Assembly: GCA_004299485.1 (NCBI GenBank)
Contig: SCQP01000018.1
Location: 124,001-188,000 of the forward strand
Origin: Acidobacteriota bacterium
GTDB taxonomy: Bacteria > Acidobacteriota > Terriglobia > Terriglobales > SCQP01
Direction: 5' to 3'
DNA: 64,000 bases
Every line of letters begins with the position of its first letter. Within the stretch, counting starts at the first letter, position 1. The notes below the pieces were generated by a model that had not been told where the DNA came from, did not search any database, and saw only the letters and a program-made list of their open reading frames with translations. Below, in pieces: positions 1,454 through 44,813 of this stretch. A program made the translations under genes and the position numbers.

Positions 1454-2773
1454 TTAGCTCGATGCAGCCGTCAGCACGGCAGCGAAAAAGCCGTCCGTGG
1501 CGAAGCGGCCCGGCAGCACGCGCAGCCAGGGCCCCTCGGTGAGCGCCGCGGCGGGCACGCGGAGGTCCGCAATCGTGGCCAGAACCTCTATCGCGGGCAG
1601 CACGCGAAGCTGGGGGCAAACGGCCAGCAACGCGGTGATGACGTCGGGGCCTTCTTCCGGTTCCATCGAGCAGACGCTGTAGATCAGCCGGCCCCCGGGC
1701 GCCAATCCGCCTGCCGCACGGCGTAATATGCTGAGCTGCAGTTGCGCCAGCCGCTCGGGATCCTGCGGCTGCACGCGCCAGCGGATTTCGGGATTGCGCG
1801 CCAGCGTGCCCGTGCCGGTGCAGGGCGCATCGACCAGAATGCGGTCAAAGCGGCCGGTCAGCGGCCAGGGCGCCGTGGCATCCGCCGCCACGATCTGGAC
1901 GCGATCACTCGCCCCGGCTCGCCGCAGCCGGCGGGCGAGCAACTGCGCGCGGCGGACGTGCCGCTCCAGGGCGAATATCTGCGCCTCCGGCGCGAGCGCA
2001 GCCAGCAGCGCAGTTTTGGAACCCGGCGCGGCGCAGACGTCCAGAATGCGCCCGCAGGCCACCGGCTGCACCAAATGCGCGATCAGTTGCGAGGCTTCAT
2101 CCTGTATCCACATTCGCCCGGAGCGGAACGCCGGCGTTTGCGTCAGCTCGCCGGCTTTCACCCGGCGGGCCGTCCGCAGCAGTTGGCCGGGCGCAAATTC
2201 GACGCCCGCGACCGGCTGCGGCGGCCAGCAGGCCACGGGCGGAGGGGCGTTATCGTATTCCGCCATGGCCGCCGCGGCCTCGGGCGAATAGAAACGGCTC
2301 CAGCGTTCCAGCATCCAGGCAGGGTGCGAGAACTCCGCCTCGCGCCGGCGCGCCAGCTCCGTCTCGTTGGCAAGGAGCCCCGCCAATGGCGCCCGCGACA
2401 CATGTCGCAACACTGCGTTCACGAAACCAGCGGCCTTAGGCCCTTCCGCTTTGGCCAATTCCACGCTCTCATGCACCGCGGCGGAGGCAGGCACGCGGTC
2501 GAGCATCCGCAACTGATAGGCGCCGAGCCGCAGCGCCGTGCGCGGCAGCAGCGGAATCTGCGCGATGGGCCGCCGCGCCGCCCGTCCGATGACGTAATCG
2601 AGCGCCGCGCGCCAGCGCAGCACCCCCATCACCAGCTCCGTCGCCAGCCGCCGGTCGGCCGGCGCCAGCGCGCGCGTCCGCTGCGAGTGCAGCAGGTCGC
2701 TGGCGTAGCCGCCGTGCTCTTCGACGAGCAGCAGAATCTCGCAGGCAAGCTGGCGCGCGGGTGAGGCAGGCAT
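1454..2773 (-). CDS. rsmB: 16S rRNA (cytosine-5)-methyltransferase RsmB/Fmu family
   Basis: RsmB methylates C967 of 16S rRNA using S-adenosylmethionine. The N-terminal third resembles the NusB-like RNA-binding domain. The C-terminal two thirds carry the SAM pocket (DVCAAPGSKT) and the two cysteine motifs of the m5C family, VDAPCTGTGTL and YSVCSMEPEEG. I chose the start MPASPARQ because the 24 upstream residues (to 2845) look like untranslated leader and overlap the divergent ThyX-like gene. A paralogous RsmF/NOL1 role cannot be excluded. Confidence 0.88.
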   Translation of the reverse strand: MPASPARQLACEILLLVEEHGGYASDLLHSQRTRALAPADRRLATELVMGVLRWRAALDYVIGRAARRPIAQIPLLPRTALRLGAYQLRMLDRVPASAAVHESVELAKAEGPKAAGFVNAVLRHVSRAPLAGLLANETELARRREAEFSHPAWMLERWSRFYSPEAAAAMAEYDNAPPPVACWPPQPVAGVEFAPGQLLRTARRVKAGELTQTPAFRSGRMWIQDEASQLIAHLVQPVACGRILDVCAAPGSKTALLAALAPEAQIFALERHVRRAQLLARRLRRAGASDRVQIVAADATAPWPLTGRFDRILVDAPCTGTGTLARNPEIRWRVQPQDPERLAQLQLSILRRAAGGLAPGGRLIYSVCSMEPEEGPDVITALLAVCPQLRVLPAIEVLATIADLRVPAAALTEGPWLRVLPGRFATDGFFAAVLTAASS

Positions 2774-2844
2774 CGCTTTAGCATGGCATGGGGTCGCGGC
2801 CGGGTCGATCCCGGCCAGGCGGCGCGAGACGCGCCTATGGGACA

Positions 2845-4242
2845 ATGAGCCTCATGGCCACTGCCGAGGTGTACTTCCTCACGGGCGTAGATCCGGAAAT
2901 TGCTGCCTATGCGATGGCGCGCTACAGCCGCTCGGCGCTGTCCATGCGCGAGAGCCTGCACGAGCTGGATCAGCAGAAAGCGGAGAAATTTCTCAACACT
3001 TTTTACTTCGCCTACGGCCACCGCTCGATCGCCGATCTCGCCCACCTGAGCCTGGCGCTGGAGCGGCTGTCGATTCTGGCGGCCATCGAAGTGGCCGACG
3101 AGACGCGCTGGGATGGCCAGGAACGCTCGACCCGCTATCAGCAGTTCGAAAAAAGCGGCTTCGTGACTCCGCCGGAGCTGGCCGACAGCCTTGAATACCC
3201 CGACATCATGCAGGCGCTGTTCGCGGCTTACCGCGAGCTCAGCGCCCGCATGGAATCCTTCCTGACCGAGCGTCATCCCCGGCCGGAGGGCATGAAGCCC
3301 GAGGCGTACGCCCGCACCATCCGCGCCCGTGCCTTCGACTTCAGCCGCTACCTGTTGCCGCTGGGCACGGCCACCAGTCTCGGTCAGATCGTCAGCGCCC
3401 GCACGCTCGAACAGCAGATCGTCCGGCTGCTCTCCTCAGCCTGGTCGGAGTGCCACGAGTTGGGCCAGGCTTTGAAGCAGGCCGCCAGCGCGCCCGGCGC
3501 CGTACCCACGCTGGTGAAGTACACCCAACCGAGCGCGTACCAGCTTGCCTCGCGGCGCGAGTTGACCGAAGCGGCCGCGGCGCTGATGAACCATGTGACG
3601 CCGGATTCGACGCCGGGCGTGCATCTGGCGCCGCCGGTCGCGCTCGAAATCGAACTCGCCGCCTCGCTGCTGTATCCGTGTTGCGACCACTCCTACCGCC
3701 AGCTTCTCGATGCGGTAGGCGCGCTGCCGGCGGCGCGGCGCGAGGAGATCGTCGAGCTGGGCCGCGCCACGCGCGGCGATCACGATGAGTTGCTGCGCCC
3801 GTTTCAGGCGGGCCAGACCTTCCAGTTCGACATCCTGATGGATATCGGCGGCTTCCGCGACCTGCACCGCCATCGCCGCTGTGTGCAACTGCACCAGGGC
3901 TACACCGCGCGGCACGGCTTCGATACGCCGGCGGAAATCGAGGCGAGCGCGGCGGGGGAAGACTACCAGACGGCCATGCAAACCGCCGGACGCTGGGCCG
4001 CACGCAAGGGCATGGCCGGCGCCTATGCCCTGCCGCTCGGCTACCGCAAGCGCAGTCTGTTCAAAATGGATCTCGCCGAGCTAGCCTACATCGCCGAGCT
4101 GCGCACCGGCGTGGGCGGCCACTTCGCCTACCGCCGCGCCGCCTGGGCGATGTTCGCAGCTCTGCGCGAGCGTCACCCGGCGCTGGCCCGCAACCTGCGC
4201 GTCACCGACCCCGCCTCCCCCTTCGACCTGCTGCAAAGATAG
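2845..4242 (+). CDS. ThyX-like FAD-dependent thymidylate synthase family protein, tandem-domain form
   Basis: The protein has two ThyX-like halves. The first contains a YGHRSIADLAHLSLALERLS helix like the ThyX GHxSxxEH region and an ERSTRYQQF segment resembling the SxRY end of the ThyX signature. The second contains LHRHRRCVQLHQGYT, which carries the RHR part. A normal ThyX is about 220-250 residues with RHRxxSxNExSxRY in one piece. Here the protein is 465 residues and the motif elements are split between halves. Whether it makes dTMP is therefore uncertain. The start at 2845 (MSLMATAEV) or 2854 (MATAEV) is more likely than the far upstream ATG. Confidence 0.7.
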   Translation: MSLMATAEVYFLTGVDPEIAAYAMARYSRSALSMRESLHELDQQKAEKFLNTFYFAYGHRSIADLAHLSLALERLSILAAIEVADETRWDGQERSTRYQQFEKSGFVTPPELADSLEYPDIMQALFAAYRELSARMESFLTERHPRPEGMKPEAYARTIRARAFDFSRYLLPLGTATSLGQIVSARTLEQQIVRLLSSAWSECHELGQALKQAASAPGAVPTLVKYTQPSAYQLASRRELTEAAAALMNHVTPDSTPGVHLAPPVALEIELAASLLYPCCDHSYRQLLDAVGALPAARREEIVELGRATRGDHDELLRPFQAGQTFQFDILMDIGGFRDLHRHRRCVQLHQGYTARHGFDTPAEIEASAAGEDYQTAMQTAGRWAARKGMAGAYALPLGYRKRSLFKMDLAELAYIAELRTGVGGHFAYRRAAWAMFAALRERHPALARNLRVTDPASPFDLLQR

Positions 4243-4639: not shown

Positions 4640-4881
4640 CTAGTAAGGAGAACCGCCCGCCTGGCCCGAGGTGATCCTGCGGCGGCAGCTTGGAGGAGCC
4701 CTGAGCGCCAGCGGATGGACCCTGCCGGAAATCGAAGCCCGCACCCCAAGCGACCAACGGGAGCGACCAGGGCAAAAAGTGGCGAGCCACCCGGTGCGGA
4801 ATTGGTTTGCGCTGCCAGCGCCCCAGCGCCGGCCAACCCCACGGCCAGTAGTAGCGTGAGCCGCGAGCGGAGCGGACGCAT
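4640..4881 (-). pseudogene. Small exported-peptide reading frame carrying repeat copy 1
   Basis: An ATG overlaps the stop codon of the cytochrome gene (TGATG) and opens a frame with a signal-peptide-like start (MRPLRSRLTLLLAVGLAGAG, then ALAAQTNSAPG). The 110-bp repeat begins immediately after this. If the 110 bp are removed, the frame continues for about a dozen codons to a TAG at 4640. With the element present, the frame reads past that TAG into antisense sequence of the neighbouring gene. I read this as a small secreted peptide gene spoiled by the insertion. Evidence for a real product is weak. Confidence 0.3.
4680..4790 (+). repeat. 111-bp dispersed element, copy 1
   Basis: This copy runs from GGCGGCAGCTTGGAGGAGCC to GTGGCGAGCCAC without length change. 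It differs from the consensus at a few positions, including GGATGGACC for GGGCGGACC and CACCCC for CACTCC. It lies between the small conserved gene ending at 4631 and the cytochrome gene, inside a short exported-peptide frame. The first base of the element is variable (C or T) among copies. Confidence 0.95.
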
Positions 4882-5407
4882 CAGGGGATGGCCGCCGCGG
4901 CGCTCTTCTGTTGCAGCGCCGCGCTGACAGCGGCGGGCAGATGATCGGCGTGCGCCAGCAGCAGACTCACCTGCCAGAGCTGAACATCGCTCAGCGAGTC
5001 GTGAAAGCCGGGCATACCGGTCAGGCGAATGCCGTTTTTCGCTTTCCAGAAGGTCACGCCGGCAGGATCGTCGGTGACCATGCCGTCCCCTTGCAGCAGT
5101 TGCGGCGGCGGTGGATACATGCCGCGCGCGGCTGCGGTCGCCGGACCGTGCGCCCAACTGTGGCAAAAGGCGCAGTGGGTGCTATACACTTGCGCGCCGG
5201 CGAGCAGGTTCGACTCCGTTAGCGGCACGGGCGCGGGAGTGCGCGGCGCCTGCCGGCGCAAGACGGCGTGCAGCGCCGTCTGCGTGATGGCGTGCTCAAA
5301 CGGCAGGGGATGCGCGGCGGTCGCCACCGGTAGCCCGCCGGTCATCGCCAAGGCGACACCGGCAGCAGGAGTATGCCGATGATGAATCCGATTACAGGTT
5401 TTGTCAT
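4881..5407 (-). CDS. Small secreted c-type cytochrome, apparent frameshift near the N terminus
   Basis: One haem site (CAFCH) and a downstream MPGF that can supply the axial Met identify a monohaem class I cytochrome c. In the haem-coding frame the N terminus is not a signal peptide. The next frame, starting at the ATG at 5407, reads MTKPVIGFIIGILLLPVSP, a good membrane/signal segment, and stops at 5342. Joining the two frames between about 5345 and 5375 gives the family pattern of a signal helix followed by GLPVATAAHPLPFEHAI. So there is either a genuine frameshift or a sequencing error. It sits directly downstream of the AhpD-like and EF-G-like genes. Confidence 0.75.
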
Positions 5408-5425: not shown

Positions 5426-5911
5426 CTAGCGGCCAGCGGCTTTACTCTCAACCTTGGTGGGCGTGCGGAACGGAATCGCCAGCCGGTTCCAGCAGTTGAT
5501 GGCGATGATGGCATAGGTCAAATCCACCAGCGCTTTGCCGTTGAAGTAGCGCGACACCCAGTCGTAGACTTCGCCGGGGACGTGATCGACGCTGACCAGC
5601 GTGACCGCCTCCGCCCAGGCGAGAGCCGCGCGTTCGGTATTGGTAAACAGGTTCGATTCGCGCCATACGGCGACGGCGTCGACGCGCTGGTTGCTTTCAC
5701 CCACGCGGCGCGCATCCCGCGCATGCATATCGACACAGAACGCGCAGCCATTAATCTGCGAGCAGCGCAGTTTGATCAGCTCGGCGATTTTCGCGTCCAG
5801 GCCGCACTCGTTCACGTATTTTTGCAGATTCACGATGGCCTGCACGCCTCCCGGCGCCGCAGCGCTGTAATCCAGGCGTTGTGCCGGCGCCTCTTCCTCG
5901 ACAAAGGGCAT
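5426..5911 (-). CDS. Carboxymuconolactone decarboxylase / AhpD-like protein
   Basis: The protein is about 161 residues of the AhpD/CMD fold, helical, with the redox CxxC motif in GCAFCVDMHARDAR. This motif matches the peroxidase-type AhpD-like group (CxxC followed by H three residues later). I chose MPFVEEEAP as start because an AGGAGG sequence lies about 8 bases upstream, inside the end of the EF-G-like gene. An earlier GTG/ATG would overlap that gene further. The likely role is hydroperoxide or thiol-disulfide chemistry; the substrate is unknown. Confidence 0.85.
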   Translation of the reverse strand: MPFVEEEAPAQRLDYSAAAPGGVQAIVNLQKYVNECGLDAKIAELIKLRCSQINGCAFCVDMHARDARRVGESNQRVDAVAVWRESNLFTNTERAALAWAEAVTLVSVDHVPGEVYDWVSRYFNGKALVDLTYAIIAINCWNRLAIPFRTPTKVESKAAGR

Positions 5912-5915
5912 GGAA

Positions 5916-8036
5916 TTATTCCTCCTCTTCCTCAGTATGCCCACGTTCGGCGCGCGCCTTGGTGATGATTTTTTCCGCCTGCAGCGCCGGCACCAGATCG
6001 TAGCGCGAAAACGCCATGTGGAACGCGCCCCGCCCCTGCGTCTTGGAGGTCAGATCGGACTGATAGGTCAGCATTTCCGCCAGGGGCACCTGGGCGCGGA
6101 TAAACTCGCTGCCGTTGCGCGGCTGCATGCCTTCAATGCGGCCGCGGCGCGCGTTGAGATCGCCGATCAGATCACCGGCATACTCCTCGGGCGATTCCAC
6201 CTCCACCATCATGATGGGTTCGAGCAGCACCGGCCGCGCCGTCTCCATGGCTTTTTTGAAGGCCAGCGAGCCAGCAAGCTTGAACGCCATTTCGCTGGAG
6301 TCAACCTCGTGATACGAGCCGTCATACAGCACCACGCGGAAATCGACCACGGGATAGCCCGCCAGGTACCCGCGCGCCGCGCTTTCCTGAATGCCTTTCT
6401 CGACCGCAGGAATGTAGTTTTTCGGAATCGAGCCGCCAAAAATTTCATTCACGAACTCAAACCCCGAGCCGCGCGCCAGCGGCTCCATGCGAATCCAGCA
6501 GTCGCCGAACTGGCCGTGGCCGCCGGTCTGCTTCTTGTGGCGGCCCTGCACGTCGGCCTTGGCGAGGATGGTTTCGCGATAGGCGACACGCGGCGCGCGC
6601 AACTGTACCTCGACGTTGTAGCGCTGCTTCAGGCGCGCGACGGCAATTTCCACATGCTGCTGGCCGGTGCCGCCCAGCAGGAACTCCTGCGTCTGGGCGT
6701 CGCGCGCAAACTGCAGCGCCCGGTCTTCTTCCAGCATCTTGTGCAGCGCCAGCGAGACCTTGTCTTCATCGCCCCGGCTTTTGGCGGCGAGGGCAAAATG
6801 AATCGCGGCTTCCGGCCAGGCAAAGGGCCGGTAGGCAATGGGCGCGGCCTTGTCGCCCAGCGTGTCGCCGGTGAGAGTGTCCTTGAGCTTGGCGACCACC
6901 CCCAGATCGCCGGCATGAAGTTCGGCGGCCGGCAGCAGTTGCTTGCCCTGCAGCACGCTCAGGTGCGCGAATTTTTCCGTGGCCTGGGTGCGGAAGTTGG
7001 TCACGGGTTCTTCGTTCTTGAGCTTGCCGCTGCGCAGCTTGAACACGCTCAGCCGTCCGGCAAACGGGTCGGCGATAGTCTTGAAGACCTCCAGCGATAG
7101 CGGTTGGCTGTCGCTCACCGTGCGCGTCAGCTCCTGCTCGGGATGGCCAGGCACCGTGCCCGGCCGCGCCGGCGCTTCACCCGGGTGCAGCGCGTAGGCG
7201 GCCACAAAATCCAGCAGCGCATCGACAGCAATATTCTGCTGGCCGCTGGTGATCAGCACCGGCACAATGCGGCGGGCGCGGATGGCGCCCCGCAAGCCCT
7301 TGACGAGATGCTCGGGCGCCAGCGTGTTCTTGTCGAAAAACTCCTCCATCAGCGCGTCGTCGCCTTCGGCAATCAGCTCGACCAGTTCTTCGTGGGCTTT
7401 TCGCGCGACCTCATCGTCGGCGGCATCAATGGCGGCGGTGCGGGTCTTGCCATTGCCGCCTGCGCTGTAGTGGCGGGCGCTCATGGCCACCAGATCGATG
7501 ACGCCCTGAAAACCGCGCTGCGCACCAATCGGCAACTGCACCGGGCACAGAGCGCGGCCGAAGCGCTCGCGCAGCGCGGCCAGCACCGCCGCAACGTCGC
7601 TGTGGTCGTGATCGGCGCGCGTCAGCACCGCCATCACCGGAAGGTTGTGCGCCGCCGCCAGCTCCCACAGCCGCGCCGTCTGCACCTGCACGCCGCTCGC
7701 GGCATCGACCGCAAGCAGCATGGTCTCCGCGACTTCCAGCGTGGCCACGGCTTCGTGGGCGAACAGGCTTTGGCCGGGCGTATCGGCGAAGTTCAGCTTG
7801 CAGGGCGCGCGGTCGGGACCGGGCCACTCCGCCAGCGCCAGACCGGTGGCGATGCTGTTGTGGCGCTGAATTTCCTGCTCGTCAAAGTCGGTGACCGTGG
7901 TGCCGGCGGCGACCGAACCCTGCTGGGGCGTGGCGCCGGCGGTGTATAAGGCTGCGGCGACGAGGGTGGTTTTGCCGCAACCGCCGTGGCCCGCGAGAGC
8001 CAGGTTGCGCACGTGGAGGGTATCGAAAACCTGCAT
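5916..8036 (-). CDS. Elongation factor G-like GTPase (EF-G paralogue)
   Basis: The 706-residue protein has the full EF-G domain order: a G domain with P-loop GHGGCGKTT, a switch II region (DTPGQSLF) and the NKXD-equivalent TRAD, then domains II-V. The P-loop differs from canonical EF-G (AHIDAGKTT), and the switch II motif is DTPGQ rather than DTPGH. This is what is seen in the divergent EF-G2-like group, so it is probably not the main translocase. It heads a gene group with the AhpD-like and cytochrome genes, and the AhpD ribosome-binding site lies within its last codons. Confidence 0.85.
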   Translation of the reverse strand: MQVFDTLHVRNLALAGHGGCGKTTLVAAALYTAGATPQQGSVAAGTTVTDFDEQEIQRHNSIATGLALAEWPGPDRAPCKLNFADTPGQSLFAHEAVATLEVAETMLLAVDAASGVQVQTARLWELAAAHNLPVMAVLTRADHDHSDVAAVLAALRERFGRALCPVQLPIGAQRGFQGVIDLVAMSARHYSAGGNGKTRTAAIDAADDEVARKAHEELVELIAEGDDALMEEFFDKNTLAPEHLVKGLRGAIRARRIVPVLITSGQQNIAVDALLDFVAAYALHPGEAPARPGTVPGHPEQELTRTVSDSQPLSLEVFKTIADPFAGRLSVFKLRSGKLKNEEPVTNFRTQATEKFAHLSVLQGKQLLPAAELHAGDLGVVAKLKDTLTGDTLGDKAAPIAYRPFAWPEAAIHFALAAKSRGDEDKVSLALHKMLEEDRALQFARDAQTQEFLLGGTGQQHVEIAVARLKQRYNVEVQLRAPRVAYRETILAKADVQGRHKKQTGGHGQFGDCWIRMEPLARGSGFEFVNEIFGGSIPKNYIPAVEKGIQESAARGYLAGYPVVDFRVVLYDGSYHEVDSSEMAFKLAGSLAFKKAMETARPVLLEPIMMVEVESPEEYAGDLIGDLNARRGRIEGMQPRNGSEFIRAQVPLAEMLTYQSDLTSKTQGRGAFHMAFSRYDLVPALQAEKIITKARAERGHTEEEEE

Positions 8037-39264: not shown

Positions 39265-39774
39265 TCAGGTCAGATTATCGTTCAGGTTCCCTCCGGAATC
39301 GCCATTAAAGACCTTAAACAAGGCGGCGACCAATGCCTCCTGGCCGCTCCGATAGAGCCAAAACTGGGTGTGCCGGTTCCTCCATCCGCTCACGATGGCC
39401 ATCAGCGGCTTGGGTGACCGCGCTTGCTCGGAAGTCGCGATGTTTCGAGCGACCTTCAAATCTTTCCTGCTCGGTTCGGAAGAGCCTAAAGGATGTGTGT
39501 GCCAGTCGCCGAGGTATCCCCAATAGCGCCCCGATCGCTCATACGCGAGCGCTACCTGTTTGTCGTCGAACTCGTAATCAGGTACGAAGCTGAAAAGCCG
39601 ATGGGCCGCGCGCGGGCCTGGGCGAGTTGCGGCCATCACAGCAGCGCTACCATCGTCGTTCCAGTAACCCAACAATAGACCGCCAGCTTCAAACGGACAA
39701 AATTGAGCTGCCACTTCCAACATCACTCCCTGAGCGGCGAATTCTAACCACACCGAACTCAATGGCTCCGGCAT
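39265..39774 (-). CDS. JAB/MPN JAMM-motif metalloprotease of the E2-E1 locus
   Basis: The 169-residue protein is a zinc isopeptidase-like JAB domain. A complete JAMM motif is visible: Glu29 in PFEAGGLLLG, then His92 and His94 (WHTHP), Ser102 and Asp105 in HTHPLGSSEPSRKD. In known systems (Cap3 of CBASS, BilC) such proteins remove a modifier or process its C terminus. Its first codons overlap the end of the E2-E1 gene by 16 bp, so the two are coupled. The base composition is lower in GC than the flanks. Confidence 0.9.
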   Translation of the reverse strand: MPEPLSSVWLEFAAQGVMLEVAAQFCPFEAGGLLLGYWNDDGSAAVMAATRPGPRAAHRLFSFVPDYEFDDKQVALAYERSGRYWGYLGDWHTHPLGSSEPSRKDLKVARNIATSEQARSPKPLMAIVSGWRNRHTQFWLYRSGQEALVAALFKVFNGDSGGNLNDNLT

Positions 39775-41462
39775 TCAGGATGCCTTTCGAGGGAGCCAAC
39801 AGTCCAGGATGGCGCGCAGAGCGCGCCTTTTGGCGTTCGCAGCGTGAGCGTGCCGACATCCCAGTTGGTGGCAGGATAGCCGCCGGGACAATTCTCTAGA
39901 AGCGTGGAAACGGCCAAGCGTATGCCCGCTAGGGATACCTCCTGCACGTCGAAGGCTGCTGCGGTAAAGGTTGGCAAATTGCAGCCTTGTGGCTGGATAA
40001 GTGTCATTGGTGGGGCCTCGGGAAGAGTCGGGAGCAAACCATCGTCCTCATTCTTCAAGAAACACCACCAGCAACCCAGGGTCGCGTTGGGGCGAATCCT
40101 CACGAGCCGACCTCCCCAACCGCCATGAGTTGAGTAGGCACAAATGTAGGGCAGAGAACGTGCACGAGCCATTGCTGATACGAGCATGTGCAAACCTGGA
40201 TCAGCGGTCGCATCGAAAACCAGGTCAATGCCATCTAACAATCGCGTTTCCGTCGCGAGGTCCAGGCCGCCCATTGATACAGCGGAGCCCACGCGCGTCT
40301 CGCTGACGGTTACCTTCGTTCGCGGGAAGTTCTCGCGAAGAAAGGCGTTTAGCGCCCAACCCTTCGCTTCGCCCGAATGCACAACCCCAAGCGGCCAACG
40401 GACGACCGTGCCCGGCTCGATGAAATCGGGTTCCACCAGGCGGAGGTCGCCGATTCCGGCTTTGGCCAGCTCGATAGCCACTGGGGCGCCCACGCACCCG
40501 AGTCCGATGATGGCGACCGCTTTGCCTTCAAGTGAAGAAAGTTCCGGTATGCGGAGGAGCATGTCTTGGTTGCCGGCGCGGCCGGCTCTGGCGAAATACG
40601 TCGCAGGCAGTGCCTTTCCATCTCGAAAACCGTTCCGCCGTACAGGGTGTTCGACGACAAAAAGCCATCCGTCCCCAGATGATTCTCGCTGTTTGATTTC
40701 TTCAGGAAAAATAATCCCTGTGATTAGCGGCGCGCTGCTTGGCCTCCCCAGCGGCCGTGGACTCATTTGCTGGCGTACCATCTCAAGAAAACGCGTGGCC
40801 TGAAATTCGAGGATCGGCGCAGCAACGCGTGACCAATCGCCAGAAAAAGTCGCGGCGTTGTATAGATCTCGCAAAGCAGGGTCGGCAACGGCGACGATTT
40901 GGCCCGAAGGATCTCGAAGTTCGAGCACGGCCGCGCTAATCGTCTTTTCGGTGAGGTACCGACAACCGACTAGCATCGTACCCGAGCTGCAAGTGGACAG
41001 ATTCCAGGATGAATCGACCAGCACAATTGAACTGGGCGCGTACGGATAATAAGCACTGACGGGCTCCGCCTGTTCGGCCTCTTGGCCTGCGGCCGCAGAT
41101 TTATCCTTGCTAATGCCTAGCTCCAATACACGCGGTAGGCGGTCACGAAGGCATTCGGCAAGGTAATCTTCCGGTCCCCAGCTCCCGGTGTTCGCGAACA
41201 GGCAGAGGTTCTTTGCGAATGGGTTCTGATGATGTTCCAGCGCGAGACTCTTCGCGAAAAGCTCGAAGCGAGTGTGCGGGTAGGTTGGTGGGAATTCCGC
41301 AACCATCTCGACAGACTGTTCCTGTGCCGTCAATGACAGCGCCATCGTCAGCACACCTCTTCTGGCGTCCTGCTCTTGAACTGTGAACTCAATCCCAGCA
41401 TCCCTGAGCGCATCGAGTTCGAACTTGAGGCGCTCAGGAATGCGCTCCCACCAGGGCTTCAC
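39759..41462 (-). CDS. E2-E1 fusion protein (UBC-like plus ThiF/E1 adenylation domain)
   Basis: The 567-residue protein begins with an E2/UBC-like domain (about 1-115). Cys87 in NPFAKNLCLF is followed by GSWGPEDY, the bacterial E2 pattern. A middle region (about 135-305) is unassigned. The C-terminal E1 domain has the Rossmann loop VAIIGLGCVGAPVAIELAKA (about 315), IEPGTVVRWPLG, DLVFDATADP, CWWC at 464-467 and GCNLPTFT (Cys494, candidate catalytic Cys). The order E2 then E1 followed by JAB is that of CBASS Cap2/Cap3. Its GTG start overlaps the stop of the 42-residue gene. Confidence 0.88.
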   Translation of the reverse strand: MKPWWERIPERLKFELDALRDAGIEFTVQEQDARRGVLTMALSLTAQEQSVEMVAEFPPTYPHTRFELFAKSLALEHHQNPFAKNLCLFANTGSWGPEDYLAECLRDRLPRVLELGISKDKSAAAGQEAEQAEPVSAYYPYAPSSIVLVDSSWNLSTCSSGTMLVGCRYLTEKTISAAVLELRDPSGQIVAVADPALRDLYNAATFSGDWSRVAAPILEFQATRFLEMVRQQMSPRPLGRPSSAPLITGIIFPEEIKQRESSGDGWLFVVEHPVRRNGFRDGKALPATYFARAGRAGNQDMLLRIPELSSLEGKAVAIIGLGCVGAPVAIELAKAGIGDLRLVEPDFIEPGTVVRWPLGVVHSGEAKGWALNAFLRENFPRTKVTVSETRVGSAVSMGGLDLATETRLLDGIDLVFDATADPGLHMLVSAMARARSLPYICAYSTHGGWGGRLVRIRPNATLGCWWCFLKNEDDGLLPTLPEAPPMTLIQPQGCNLPTFTAAAFDVQEVSLAGIRLAVSTLLENCPGGYPATNWDVGTLTLRTPKGALCAPSWTVGSLERHPECRSH

Positions 41463-41587
41463 CCCACCTCCCTGTGATGAGGAGGTCGCGGCGGATTTGG
41501 CGGCCCCGGCGGATGGCCCGGCTTGGGTGGGTGTTCATGTTGAGGAGACGATTCCGGCTCCCGCGGCTTCTGGTCTGGTTTCGACAT
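41459..41587 (-). CDS. 42-residue Pro/His-rich peptide ending in glycine
   Basis: The frame starts MSKPDQKPREPESSPQHEHP, continues as a Pro-Pro-rich stretch and ends HHREVG. A ribosome-binding site (AGGAG) lies 8 bases before the ATG. Its TGA overlaps the GTG of the E2-E1 gene (GTGA), so the genes are probably translationally coupled. It has no beta-grasp length and no hydrophobic core. The terminal Gly is what an E1 would need for adenylation. A modifier or a substrate tail is a hypothesis. Confidence 0.6.
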   Translation of the reverse strand: MSKPDQKPREPESSPQHEHPPKPGHPPGPPNPPRPPHHREVG

Positions 41588-41612
41588 TTAATCTCCTAGG
41601 AATCAGGTTTGT

Positions 41613-41798
41613 TTAGGCCGAAAGGAAATCCTCGATCCCATGGCTCAGCAAATGCTCCGCCAGGGTCCGGCATCCACGGTCGCAGTTGGGGGTTGATAGC
41701 AATATGCAAGCGGCGCCGACCCAAAGCAACGCCGCAAGCCAGCCCGAGTTCTTCGGTGTTGTCACGCTCAATTCCCTCCGTTCCGATTTTCCGTGCAT
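41613..41798 (-). CDS. 61-residue small protein with one membrane helix
   Basis: One frame reads MHGKSERRELSVTTPKNSG, a hydrophobic WLAALLWVGAACILLSTPN and a C-terminal NCDRGCRTLAEHLLSHGIED. Third codon positions are richer in GC in this frame than in an overlapping alternative frame (41596-41805), so I favour it. It ends 25 bp before the 42-residue gene. No clear ribosome-binding site is seen. It would be a membrane-anchored component with a Cys pair. I do not recognise it. Confidence 0.45.
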   Translation of the reverse strand: MHGKSERRELSVTTPKNSGWLAALLWVGAACILLSTPNCDRGCRTLAEHLLSHGIEDFLSA

Positions 41799-41830: not shown

Positions 41831-41906
41831 TGAACATGAGGGGACTGTACGCCACTCGGCTTCCTTTGTCAAACTGTGTTTTATATTTGAGACAGGAGGG
41901 TAGGCG

Positions 41907-42287
41907 ATGACGCTTTTGCGCCTCGGGGCAGCGCTCCGTGATAGAAGGGGCACGCGCGGCGTTCGCGAGCTTGCGGCGGAAATTGGAATCAGTCCGGCTA
42001 CGCTATCGCGCGTTGAAGGGGGCAAGCTTCCTGACCTGGTCACTTTCCGGAAAATTTGTGTCTGGCTGAAAATCGATCCGGCACAAATCCTAGGCCTTCC
42101 CGGTGCTCAGGAGGGGTCAACCGAGCCCTCAATTCCGGACTCGATGACGGTAGCCGTTCACCTTCGGGCAGATGCGCAACTGTCCCAAGAAGCCGCCGGC
42201 GATTTGGCCGCGCTAATTCTTGCCGCCCAAAGAGAACTGGCTGGCAGAGTACGGGATGGGCGTGCCGATGTTCCGTCGTGGGTTTAA
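41907..42287 (+). CDS. XRE-family helix-turn-helix regulator
   Basis: The N-terminal HTH is VRELAAEIGISPATLSRVEG, with LVTFRKICVWLKIDPAQILG completing the five-helix domain. The C-terminal half is unassigned. A good ribosome-binding site (AGGAGGG) precedes the ATG. The downstream ImmA-like gene overlaps its 3' end by 32 bp. XRE/ImmA pairs typically control mobile elements or defence systems, with the protease cleaving the repressor. Confidence 0.9.
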   Translation: MTLLRLGAALRDRRGTRGVRELAAEIGISPATLSRVEGGKLPDLVTFRKICVWLKIDPAQILGLPGAQEGSTEPSIPDSMTVAVHLRADAQLSQEAAGDLAALILAAQRELAGRVRDGRADVPSWV

Positions 42288-42837
42288 GACGTGGTCGGAG
42301 GAGACCGCAGCTCATGTTAGACAAGCGCTCCAGATTGCAATGGACGCGCCTCTGGAGCCACTGCGTATGGCCGAGTATTTAAGTGTTCCGGTTCTACGGC
42401 CTCTGGATCTTTCGGGACTTGCGCCGGAGGTTATCGGCCGCCTGTCGGCCTCGCACCGCGAAGCGTGGTCGGCGATTACGGTAGCCAATGGCCGGCACAA
42501 GCTCATCGTCATTAATCCGGCGCATTCGCAGGCACGTCAAAATAGCAGCCTCGCCCATGAGCTTGCGCACATAATTCTTGACCATGAGCCCTCGTTGATG
42601 TTCATGGCGCCCGGGAGCGGCGCTGTGTTGAGGACGCACAACAAGGAGCAAGAGGACGAAGCGGGATGGCTTGCAGGGACTCTGCTGCTCCCAAGAGCGG
42701 CGCTTCTTAAGATCAGACGCAGGCGGCTCACGAACGAGGAGGCTTGCACCGAATACTTCGTCAGCGCAGCCATGCTCCGGTTCCGACTCAACGCAACCGG
42801 TGTCAATGTGCAAATCAGGCGTGCCGGTCGGATTTGA
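42256..42837 (+). CDS. ImmA/IrrE-family zinc metallopeptidase
   Basis: The catalytic motif SSLAHELAHIILDH supplies the HExxH-type zinc site, followed by EDEAGWLAGTLLLPRAAL, the conserved third-ligand region, and the EACTEYFVSAAMLRFRLNATG helix pair. The ATG at 42256 (MGVPMFRRGFKTWSE) is favoured over one at 42220. In ImmA-ImmR type switches the protease removes the HTH repressor. Here the target is likely the upstream XRE protein. Confidence 0.92.
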   Translation: MGVPMFRRGFKTWSEETAAHVRQALQIAMDAPLEPLRMAEYLSVPVLRPLDLSGLAPEVIGRLSASHREAWSAITVANGRHKLIVINPAHSQARQNSSLAHELAHIILDHEPSLMFMAPGSGAVLRTHNKEQEDEAGWLAGTLLLPRAALLKIRRRRLTNEEACTEYFVSAAMLRFRLNATGVNVQIRRAGRI

Positions 42838-43236: not shown

Positions 43237-44187
43237 TTAATCACGCTCAGAACTTGGCTGAATTTCACGCAAGTCGAGCAATAGAAAAGTCTCAATCGTT
43301 CGCCCCGGCTTTTTGGTCTCGCGCTTCCGTAAGACCGCCTGCCAACGCCGCCCGACGAGCTGCTCCTGATGTATGCGTTCGAGATATGTTTCACTGAAAA
43401 TCTCCGCAACTTTTCCGGAGATGAGTTCGCCTCCGGGATACGTCCTGAACTCAAACCGACGCCCGTACGGTACTACCCCTATCAGTTCTCCCTCGACCGG
43501 AATGTCGTCCTCTGCAATCTCGGTGGCTTCGACTCTACTGTATGCCCTTTCGATTGCAGCTTGATCAAACGGCATCTCTCGCTCGTCCTCGACAAGCCGG
43601 AATACTGCATGCTCACTGCGAATCTCCTTAAAGAAGTCCCTCAGGGACGAAAATATCCGTGGATTTATCTCTTCAACCAGAGCGCTGAACGGACGATCGT
43701 CTTCGGCCGCGACTTGCTCCATGTAATCGGTTACCTTGCTGATTGTTTGCTTTAGCGGCGTTGGGAAGAGCGGTTCACCTCGCTCGTCAAGTTCCTCCAA
43801 CAAGAACCCGACCGATCCGTGGACAAGGTTCGTGATGTGGAGTCGTGTGGCATCGCGATCCTTAATCTGTCCTCGCAATGCCAAGGCGCCACACTGGAGA
43901 GTTGCCCCGACTTTCGACACAAGATCCTGATAAGTGGATACAATGGAAGAAGCGAAATCGGCCTGAATTCCGCGGCTGCCGATGACGGGGCCACCCCCAA
44001 AGTATAGTGCGACTGCGGCTCGCCGTTCCTCCATAGTGTCGAGTTCGGCTAATCTGCCTCGTAGCTCTTGGACTCGCGAGCTAAATCCTAGCAGGCCTAC
44101 GGGATCATTTGCCGGAAGTGAACCGAGGATCGCTTCAACCGACGCGATCTCAGCAACGAGCTGGTCCCGCTCGATTTTGCGAATCAT
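43237..44187 (-). CDS. Unrecognised 316-residue protein paired with a DUF6932-like nucleotidyltransferase
   Basis: The start MIRKIERDQLVAEIASVE overlaps the upstream gene stop (ATGA). The protein opens with a probable coiled coil (about 1-55), then a helix-rich body with FASSIVSTYQDLVSKVGATL and LVHGSVGFLLEELDERGE, and ends in a beta-rich domain (GELIGVVPYGRRFEFRTYPG, then TIETFLLLDLREIQ). No membrane helix or catalytic motif stands out. The tight coupling to the nucleotidyltransferase suggests a two-protein module. Confidence 0.7.
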   Translation of the reverse strand: MIRKIERDQLVAEIASVEAILGSLPANDPVGLLGFSSRVQELRGRLAELDTMEERRAAVALYFGGGPVIGSRGIQADFASSIVSTYQDLVSKVGATLQCGALALRGQIKDRDATRLHITNLVHGSVGFLLEELDERGEPLFPTPLKQTISKVTDYMEQVAAEDDRPFSALVEEINPRIFSSLRDFFKEIRSEHAVFRLVEDEREMPFDQAAIERAYSRVEATEIAEDDIPVEGELIGVVPYGRRFEFRTYPGGELISGKVAEIFSETYLERIHQEQLVGRRWQAVLRKRETKKPGRTIETFLLLDLREIQPSSERD

Positions 44188-44798
44188 GGCTGTATCCCCG
44201 GCATAAGCAGTGCGGCTGCGGCATGGTCCGCTGCCGTGATTGCAAGTGGCACCTCTAACATGCCCTTCCATTCGCCCGTCACCCTCCTGTGTGAAAAGAG
44301 GCCATACCAGTAGCGAGTCTGAGCAACCAGCGTTAGTGGATCGATGTCCAGATCCACGAAGTAGGAATCGCAGTGATAATTTTGTTTATTCGATAAAGGA
44401 TGGAACAAGGTCGAGTTCGAGGCGAAGAACTCGGCCCATAATGGGTCGGAACGCAAATGCGGTGGGCGCCGGAAGAAGGTCACAACGTCGAGATCGTTCG
44501 GATTACGGCTTTCCCGAACTTCAATCAACTCTGTAAAGCTGCCATCTAGCCACTGGAACCCGTCATTCAGACCTGCCTTTTGTAAGGCCAGCCTGAACTG
44601 AAGGAATCCTCGAAAGATCTCGGATCGCTTCGCGGTGTGCGACAGTGCTCTGGCTACGACCTCGACCGAAGTAGGATATGGTGCCAAGGATTGCGGCTGC
44701 GCGGGATTGGTGCCGCAGTATGGCGGGAGTAACCCGGCCAGTGTGAATGCTGGCAAGGCCGTGAAGAGCACTGAAGGGGTGTAAGTTGGAGTACCCAT
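44184..44798 (-). CDS. DUF6932-like nucleotidyltransferase-fold protein
   Basis: The N-terminal ALPAFTLAGLLPPYCGTNP and the active-site-like FQWLDGSFTELIEVRESRNP followed by NDLDVVTFF fit the DUF6932 group. These have a polymerase-beta-type GS motif and DxD (NDLDVV). MGTPTYTPSV is a likely start; another ATG lies five codons upstream. Related proteins are found near toxin-antitoxin and phage-defence genes. The nucleotide product or target is unknown. The composition differs from the housekeeping flanks. Confidence 0.72.
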   Translation of the reverse strand: MGTPTYTPSVLFTALPAFTLAGLLPPYCGTNPAQPQSLAPYPTSVEVVARALSHTAKRSEIFRGFLQFRLALQKAGLNDGFQWLDGSFTELIEVRESRNPNDLDVVTFFRRPPHLRSDPLWAEFFASNSTLFHPLSNKQNYHCDSYFVDLDIDPLTLVAQTRYWYGLFSHRRVTGEWKGMLEVPLAITAADHAAAALLMPGIQP

Positions 44799-44813
44799 CG
44801 GGCCGAAAAACAA

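Follow-up and report, generated by a model that had tools for sequence, protein, structure and literature searches.

To our knowledge, the modifiers known to depend on E1 and E2 enzymes are folded, being either beta-grasp ubiquitin-like proteins (Ubls) or, in CBASS, the whole cyclase. Pup relies on PafA/Dop chemistry that is unrelated to E1/E2/JAMM and has a C-terminal Glu/Gln, and MccB of microcin C acts on a 7-residue peptide. In CBASS, Cap2 conjugates CD-NTases via a C-terminal Gly or Ala (PMC10097602). The CD-NTase C-terminus conjugated by Cap2 is a flexible tail of ~30 residues, and the conjugation is reversed by Cap3 (PMC11153139). The modifier of Bil systems is a folded ubiquitin-like protein (PMC11354881). 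Bub operons often adjoin CapW or CapH/CapP, and pairs of CapH and CapP regulate immune operons in response to DNA damage (PMC13373217).

The window, a 64,000-nucleotide stretch of DNA from an Acidobacteriota bacterium, contains a compact operon built from enzymes of this kind (Table 1). We consider it likely, with fairly high confidence, that this operon is a minimal reversible Cap2/Cap3-type conjugation cassette in which the conjugated item is a free-standing disordered tail. A sequence-only reading had described a run of four open reading frames with overlapping junctions, and all four are present on the reverse strand: the stop of the 42-aa ORF and the GTG start of the E2-E1 gene share 4 nt (GTGA), and a 16-nt overlap joins the E2-E1 gene to the JAB gene. 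The Shine-Dalgarno sequence AGGAG preceding the 42-aa ORF is rated good. PADLOC profiles assign the 567-aa protein to E1-E2 (1.4e-31) and the 169-aa protein to JAB (5e-24), and Pfam gives zero matches for the 61-aa and 42-aa ORFs. Two genes beside the cassette, at 43237-44813 on the reverse strand, encode a DUF6932 protein (PADLOC candidate PDC-M63A, 7.5e-10) and a 344-aa protein that Pfam does not match, possibly forming a second small defence module.

Table 1. Features of the cassette and its surroundings, in positions of the window.
Feature	Position	Strand	Basis or remark
61-aa ORF, probably outside the system	41613-41798	-	No Pfam match; no homologue
42-aa ORF, putative modifier (MSKPDQKPREPESSPQHEHPPKPGHPPGPPNPPRPPHHREVG), Pro/His/Gly-rich, disordered, C-terminal Gly	41459-41587	-	Shine-Dalgarno AGGAG; co-conservation
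E2-E1 fusion, 567 aa, Cap2-like, GTG start	39759-41462	-	Pfam ThiF 5e-15, Prok-E2_B 7e-7
JAMM/Prok-JAB protein, 169 aa, Cap3-like, predicted isopeptidase	39265-39774	-	Pfam Prok-JAB 2.5e-12
HTH regulator (Cro/C1-type, CapH-like), divergent	41907-42287	+	Pfam HTH_31 1.2e-7
M78/ImmA-IrrE metallopeptidase (CapP-like), HEXXH motif LAHELAH	42220-42837	+	Pfam M78 5.5e-17; PADLOC capP 6.9e-13
Putative sigma-70-like promoter before the operon (weakly supported), TTGACA-17-TACAGT	41844-41872	-	Position alone; count equals shuffled expectation

The E2-E1 fusion is related to Cap2 in architecture and fold. It has an N-terminal E2 domain with its Cys and a C-terminal ThiF-fold E1 domain with its Cys and the motif GLGCVG. 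Foldseek, one of the checks that had been proposed from the sequence, placed Cap2 (7to3) first with an E-value of 4.9e-24 over the whole length, at 16% identity over the fold alignment. Sequence profiles likewise ranked Cap2 at the top in the PDB, and MccB was among the fold and the sequence matches. The AlphaFold model of the fusion has a pLDDT of 84 and places C494 in a flexible loop. Seven residues are invariant in all 26 aligned E2-E1 sequences (H78 and C87 of the E2 domain; D346, R355, K367, D417 and C494 of the E1 domain), including both cysteines that had been named from the sequence. Cys 464, 467 and 564, kept in 25 of the 26, are possible zinc ligands. The 169-aa protein retains the JAMM residues E29, H92, H94, S102 and D105 (an E followed by the motif HxH...S..D) and is encoded next to the cap2-like gene, as is Cap3; isopeptidase activity is thus predicted for it. 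In a maximum-likelihood tree, 40 E2-E1 proteins of tail-type loci form one group against nine of the CBASS or MBL type with moderate support (79/87), and the window protein groups with L092, L051 and members from Bacteroidota.

Homologous loci were collected from three sources. Plasmid records gave ~10 relatives with at least 80% query coverage and 28-35% identity, and the eight plasmid loci retrieved are from Hymenobacter, Arthrobacter, Sinorhizobium, Iamia, Indioceanicola and Sphingobium. An alignment of the E1 C-terminus, used to scan 84,980 genomes, added 45 further loci from Pseudomonadota, Bacteroidota, Actinomycetota, Planctomycetota, Chloroflexota and candidate division KSB1. The E2-E1 sequence or profile, applied to a sample of ~1,900 genomes, yielded three extra tail-type loci (L021, L092 and L103), which makes the cassette rare (well under 1% of genomes) yet widely scattered. 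The JAMM gene is directly downstream of E2-E1 in nearly all cassettes. The peptide gene was sought with a pattern comprising a Pro-rich stretch of 26 aa, VG, 0-6 aa and a stop, and in 50 of the 54 surveyed loci exactly one coding-strand ORF, directly upstream of E2-E1, fits it, mostly within -8 to +10 nt of the E2-E1 start. The four exceptions are three loci with a broken E2-E1 (L062, L066, L072) and L032, where no stop follows the motif KDREVG. In the window the pattern has one match, and across 900 kb of retrieved DNA, read on both strands, it matches cassettes only; conservation of the peptide is therefore far beyond chance. Since the pattern demanded VG, the invariance of these two residues comes partly from how loci were selected, and what carries the claim of co-conservation is that recovery was near-complete, that independently sampled loci also have the peptide and that no match occurs elsewhere. 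In the independently sampled loci the peptide ends in KHRPVG (L021), KDRPVG (L092) and GPRKVA (L103), the last with Ala in place of Gly.

The 42-aa gene is thus strictly co-conserved with the E2-E1 and JAMM genes across at least six phyla. The sequence-only reading would have yielded to homologous loci that held a standard CD-NTase or Ubl and did not conserve the small genes, and the survey came out the opposite way for the 42-aa gene. That reading had left open which of two tiny proteins was the modifier or target; the 42-aa product retains this candidacy through its co-conservation and its C-terminal Gly (once Ala), and the 61-aa product loses it. Neither the fetched loci nor 20 relatives yielded a homologue of the 61-aa ORF, which was rejected as modifier on that ground. 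Being conserved beside E2-E1 in dozens of unrelated bacteria, the 42-aa peptide is very probably the tag itself. Annotation mostly misses its gene, which is listed in one of the eight plasmid loci according to plasmid gene tables that are themselves incomplete. Close relatives of the host gave only MoeB/ThiF-like matches to E2-E1 and lack the cassette, so it was probably acquired. Phage and viral collections and viral contigs gave no homologue, and no link to phages is visible.

Some individual loci show further features. In L032 (Chloroflexi, 4820-5220) the frame continues for ~75 codons past KDREVG, through either a frameshift or a true C-terminal extension, and another copy lies at a contig end of that genome (G414 C93). 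The cassette of L105 (G1774 C43) lies downstream of genes that resemble TniQ by eye, which suggests carriage by a Tn7-like element. In Sinorhizobium and Sphingobium (L026 and L029, similarly L046 and L050), a pair of Xre/MbcA antitoxin and RES toxin is directly upstream of the cassette. Plasmid-borne cassettes adjoin copper or heavy-metal resistance genes in L022, L023 and L029.

The surroundings of the cassettes contain few recurrent families. Across 68 flanking proteins, only M78 peptidases (seven), HTH proteins and integrases recur, and other families are scattered. The flank scan showed no recurrent CD-NTase, SAVED protein, other effector or target, nor was the PafA/Dop family recurrent in it. 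No cyclic-nucleotide effector (CapV, SAVED and others) was found at the locus with Pfam and PADLOC or recurrently in the flanks, and a beta-grasp Ubl, which Bil, Bub, 6d and 6e operons would encode, is likewise missing from the operon and from the recurrent flanking families. The absence of a CD-NTase, Ubl or known effector nearby, as originally read from the sequence, therefore holds in the operon and as a recurrent feature of the flanks.

Members of the peptide family are 39-70 aa long, apart from a fused form in L031. Pro makes up 37%, Gly 14% and His 8% of their residues, Cys and Tyr are absent, and hydrophobic residues are very scarce. AlphaFold, given 26 sequences, models the 42-aa peptide without helix or strand (pTM 0.22), and a peptide predicted to be free of secondary structure cannot be a beta-grasp Ubl. 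The C-terminus is typically (R/K)xVG, sometimes with 1-2 extra residues and once with VA: 39 of 50 peptides have RPVG, others have KHVG, RQVG, RKVG, GQVG or GKVG, and the window peptide has REVG. Given a short, proline-rich ORF that is translationally coupled to E2-E1, it could be proposed that the peptide is an inert leader on whose proline runs ribosomes stall in an EF-P-dependent manner, regulating the downstream gene. This is very unlikely, because conservation is strictest at the C-terminal VG, where each of the four Val and four Gly codons is in use among the surveyed peptides. The dN/dS of the tail is ~0.07-0.12 in pairs at 70% identity or more, a value biased downward by that choice of pairs. 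A stalling leader also sits poorly with five of the 39 RPVG peptides, which carry an extra QQ, QQ, Q, QG or R after VG and in this resemble unprocessed Ubls, with the Gly-to-Ala variant of L103, and with the fusion of the tail to other domains in L031; it would, moreover, leave the enzymes without any modifier.

The fusion in L031 (Hymenobacter) replaces the free peptide by a 162-aa upstream protein (1602-2090) made of two DUF1508 (YegP) domains (1e-21) and a tail ending in DRPVG. Because the same kind of tail is here attached to two DUF1508 domains, it behaves as a portable C-terminal tag. A 2026 paper reports YegP-like genes beside CapK/CapS regulators (PMC13373217), and the two observations may belong to one linked theme. 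In the nearest outgroup operons, the place of the peptide gene is taken by a CD-NTase in L090 and L093 and by an MBL protein in L091, all with Pro-rich tails; the CD-NTases end in PPRSRWYG and PRAPRDERYG and the MBL protein (5545-6606) in PRRDRYAG. In L099, an MBL protein (2196-3227) upstream of E2-E1 ends in the Gly-type tail KPMGGQ. The Gly-type tails of L091 and L099 suggest that in 6A-MBL-like systems the modifier that becomes conjugated is the MBL protein itself. The peptide family has what Cap2 uses in its substrate, a flexible tail with a C-terminal Gly or Ala (RKVA of L103 included), and by this analogy the cassette looks like a CD-NTase tail minus its cyclase, with the Gly/Ala exchange retained.

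The CD-NTases with Pro-rich, Gly-ending tails at the same position could also mean that the cassette is a degenerate CBASS, in which the cyclase was lost and the tail ORF is a leftover CD-NTase C-terminus. Intact cassettes under purifying selection in at least six phyla, with no CD-NTase, SAVED protein or effector recurring beside them, make this highly improbable. Furthermore, a CD-NTase was found nowhere in 6 of 12 cassette-bearing genomes, among them that of the window, whose assembly was searched for PF18144. A historical origin of the peptide from a cyclase tail is possible. The reading of an E1-E2-JAMM pathway with a bare disordered modifier is probably correct, the tail serving as a portable unit for Cap2-like recognition and CD-NTase, MBL protein, DUF1508 domains or nothing at all serving as interchangeable cargo.

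Among the closest described systems, type II CBASS shares with the cassette the E2-E1 architecture, the full-length match to the Cap2 fold (7to3), the JAMM gene downstream, the modifier gene directly upstream, the C-terminal Gly/Ala on a flexible tail and, sometimes, CapH/CapP-like regulators. In contrast to CBASS, the cassette has no CD-NTase or effector, its modifier is an unfolded 42-aa tail alone, and identity to Cap2 is only 16%. In 6A-MBL systems, E2-E1(-JAMM) is likewise preceded by an MBL protein, which has a Gly-type tail (YAG in L091, MGGQ in L099), whereas no MBL gene lies beside the present cassette and its E1 and JAB matches score 47.7 and 57 bits against a 6A-MBL cut-off of 320. 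Bil/Bub operons also hold E1, E2 and JAMM enzymes together but differ in that the cassette lacks a gene for a folded Ubl and has E2 and E1 fused. Pup/UBact resembles the cassette in its small intrinsically disordered modifier; unlike it, the cassette has E1/E2/JAMM enzymes, and its peptide ends in xVG or VA rather than Gly-Gly-Glu/Gln. In the part of an earlier catalogue that tabulates such operons, row 6b (E2 and E1 with JAB) lists RhNGR234a and an Arthrobacter (Iyer 2006, PMC1779556), so the cassette enzymes were probably catalogued in 2006. Plasmids pNGR234a and Arthrobacter FB24 plasmid 1 do carry members of the present family, which thus resembles types 6b/6c; row 6b is paired with a nucleotidyltransferase, whereas the pNGR234a and FB24 loci have none adjacent, and a short disordered peptide goes unmentioned in that part of the paper (PMC1779556).

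In microcin C, an E1-like enzyme (MccB) activates a short unstructured peptide (MccA) at its C-terminus. A RiPP-type precursor activated in this manner, or a sulfur carrier, would account for the pairing of a short peptide with an E1 of the ThiF/MccB fold and for the matches to MccB. Microcin C has no E2 or JAMM protein and its product is an antibiotic rather than a protein conjugate, whereas the peptide is accompanied throughout by a JAMM protein and by an E2 domain whose His and Cys are invariant, and genes for export, immunity or biosynthesis do not recur in the flanks; such a role is extremely unlikely. The peptide might instead be the recipient of another modifier or a His-rich metal-binding accessory, since many members are His-rich and several plasmid cassettes are near copper or heavy-metal genes. 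This is equally hard to credit: L030 has no His and L025 no Lys, the conserved C-terminal Gly/Ala marks a modifier, and no other modifier candidate is encoded. Metal binding as a general role was rejected, several peptides being without His. Peptides without Lys, such as that of L025, also show that Lys-linked chains are not general.

If the free tail is indeed the modifier, the chemistry would follow that of Cap2/Cap3. The E1 domain would adenylate the C-terminal Gly (Gly42) of the 42-aa peptide and load it as a thioester on C494, from which the peptide would be handed to C87 of the fused E2. The E2 domain would then place it on an amine, probably a lysine, of one or more target proteins. Removal of the peptide would fall to the JAMM protein, which would also trim precursors ending in VGQQ, VGQ, VGQG or VGR.

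For regulation and targets, context offers some guidance. An M78 peptidase adjoins the cassette in seven surveyed loci besides the window, and also in L021, where the HTH and M78 pair is divergent as in the window; most of these loci have an evident HTH protein or domain. In gene content, an HTH repressor and M78 peptidase adjoining an operon promoter match a CapH/CapP pair, and by this resemblance the two genes are probably a divergent CapH/CapP-like control pair. The HTH protein would probably repress the operon, and the M78 peptidase would cut it after DNA damage. Targets would then be decorated with a stiff, charged, proline-rich bristle, most likely in stress or anti-phage defence; from its context, a defence function for the cassette is slightly favoured.

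Searches of openly accessible full texts turned up no description of a disordered modifier in an E1/E2 system. The enzymes are of a known kind, and the modifier class may be new. If the reading is true, it would be the smallest ubiquitin-like system known, and its conjugates would leave a diagnostic Lys-EVG remnant upon trypsin digestion. A bare-tail modifier would explain the "orphan" loci of the E2-E1-JAMM type on plasmids, rhizobial and sphingomonad ones among them. It would also mean that a fold is dispensable for an E1/E2-dependent modifier and that an unfolded peptide of ~40 aa suffices, which would fit the use that Cap2 makes of the flexible cyclase tail.
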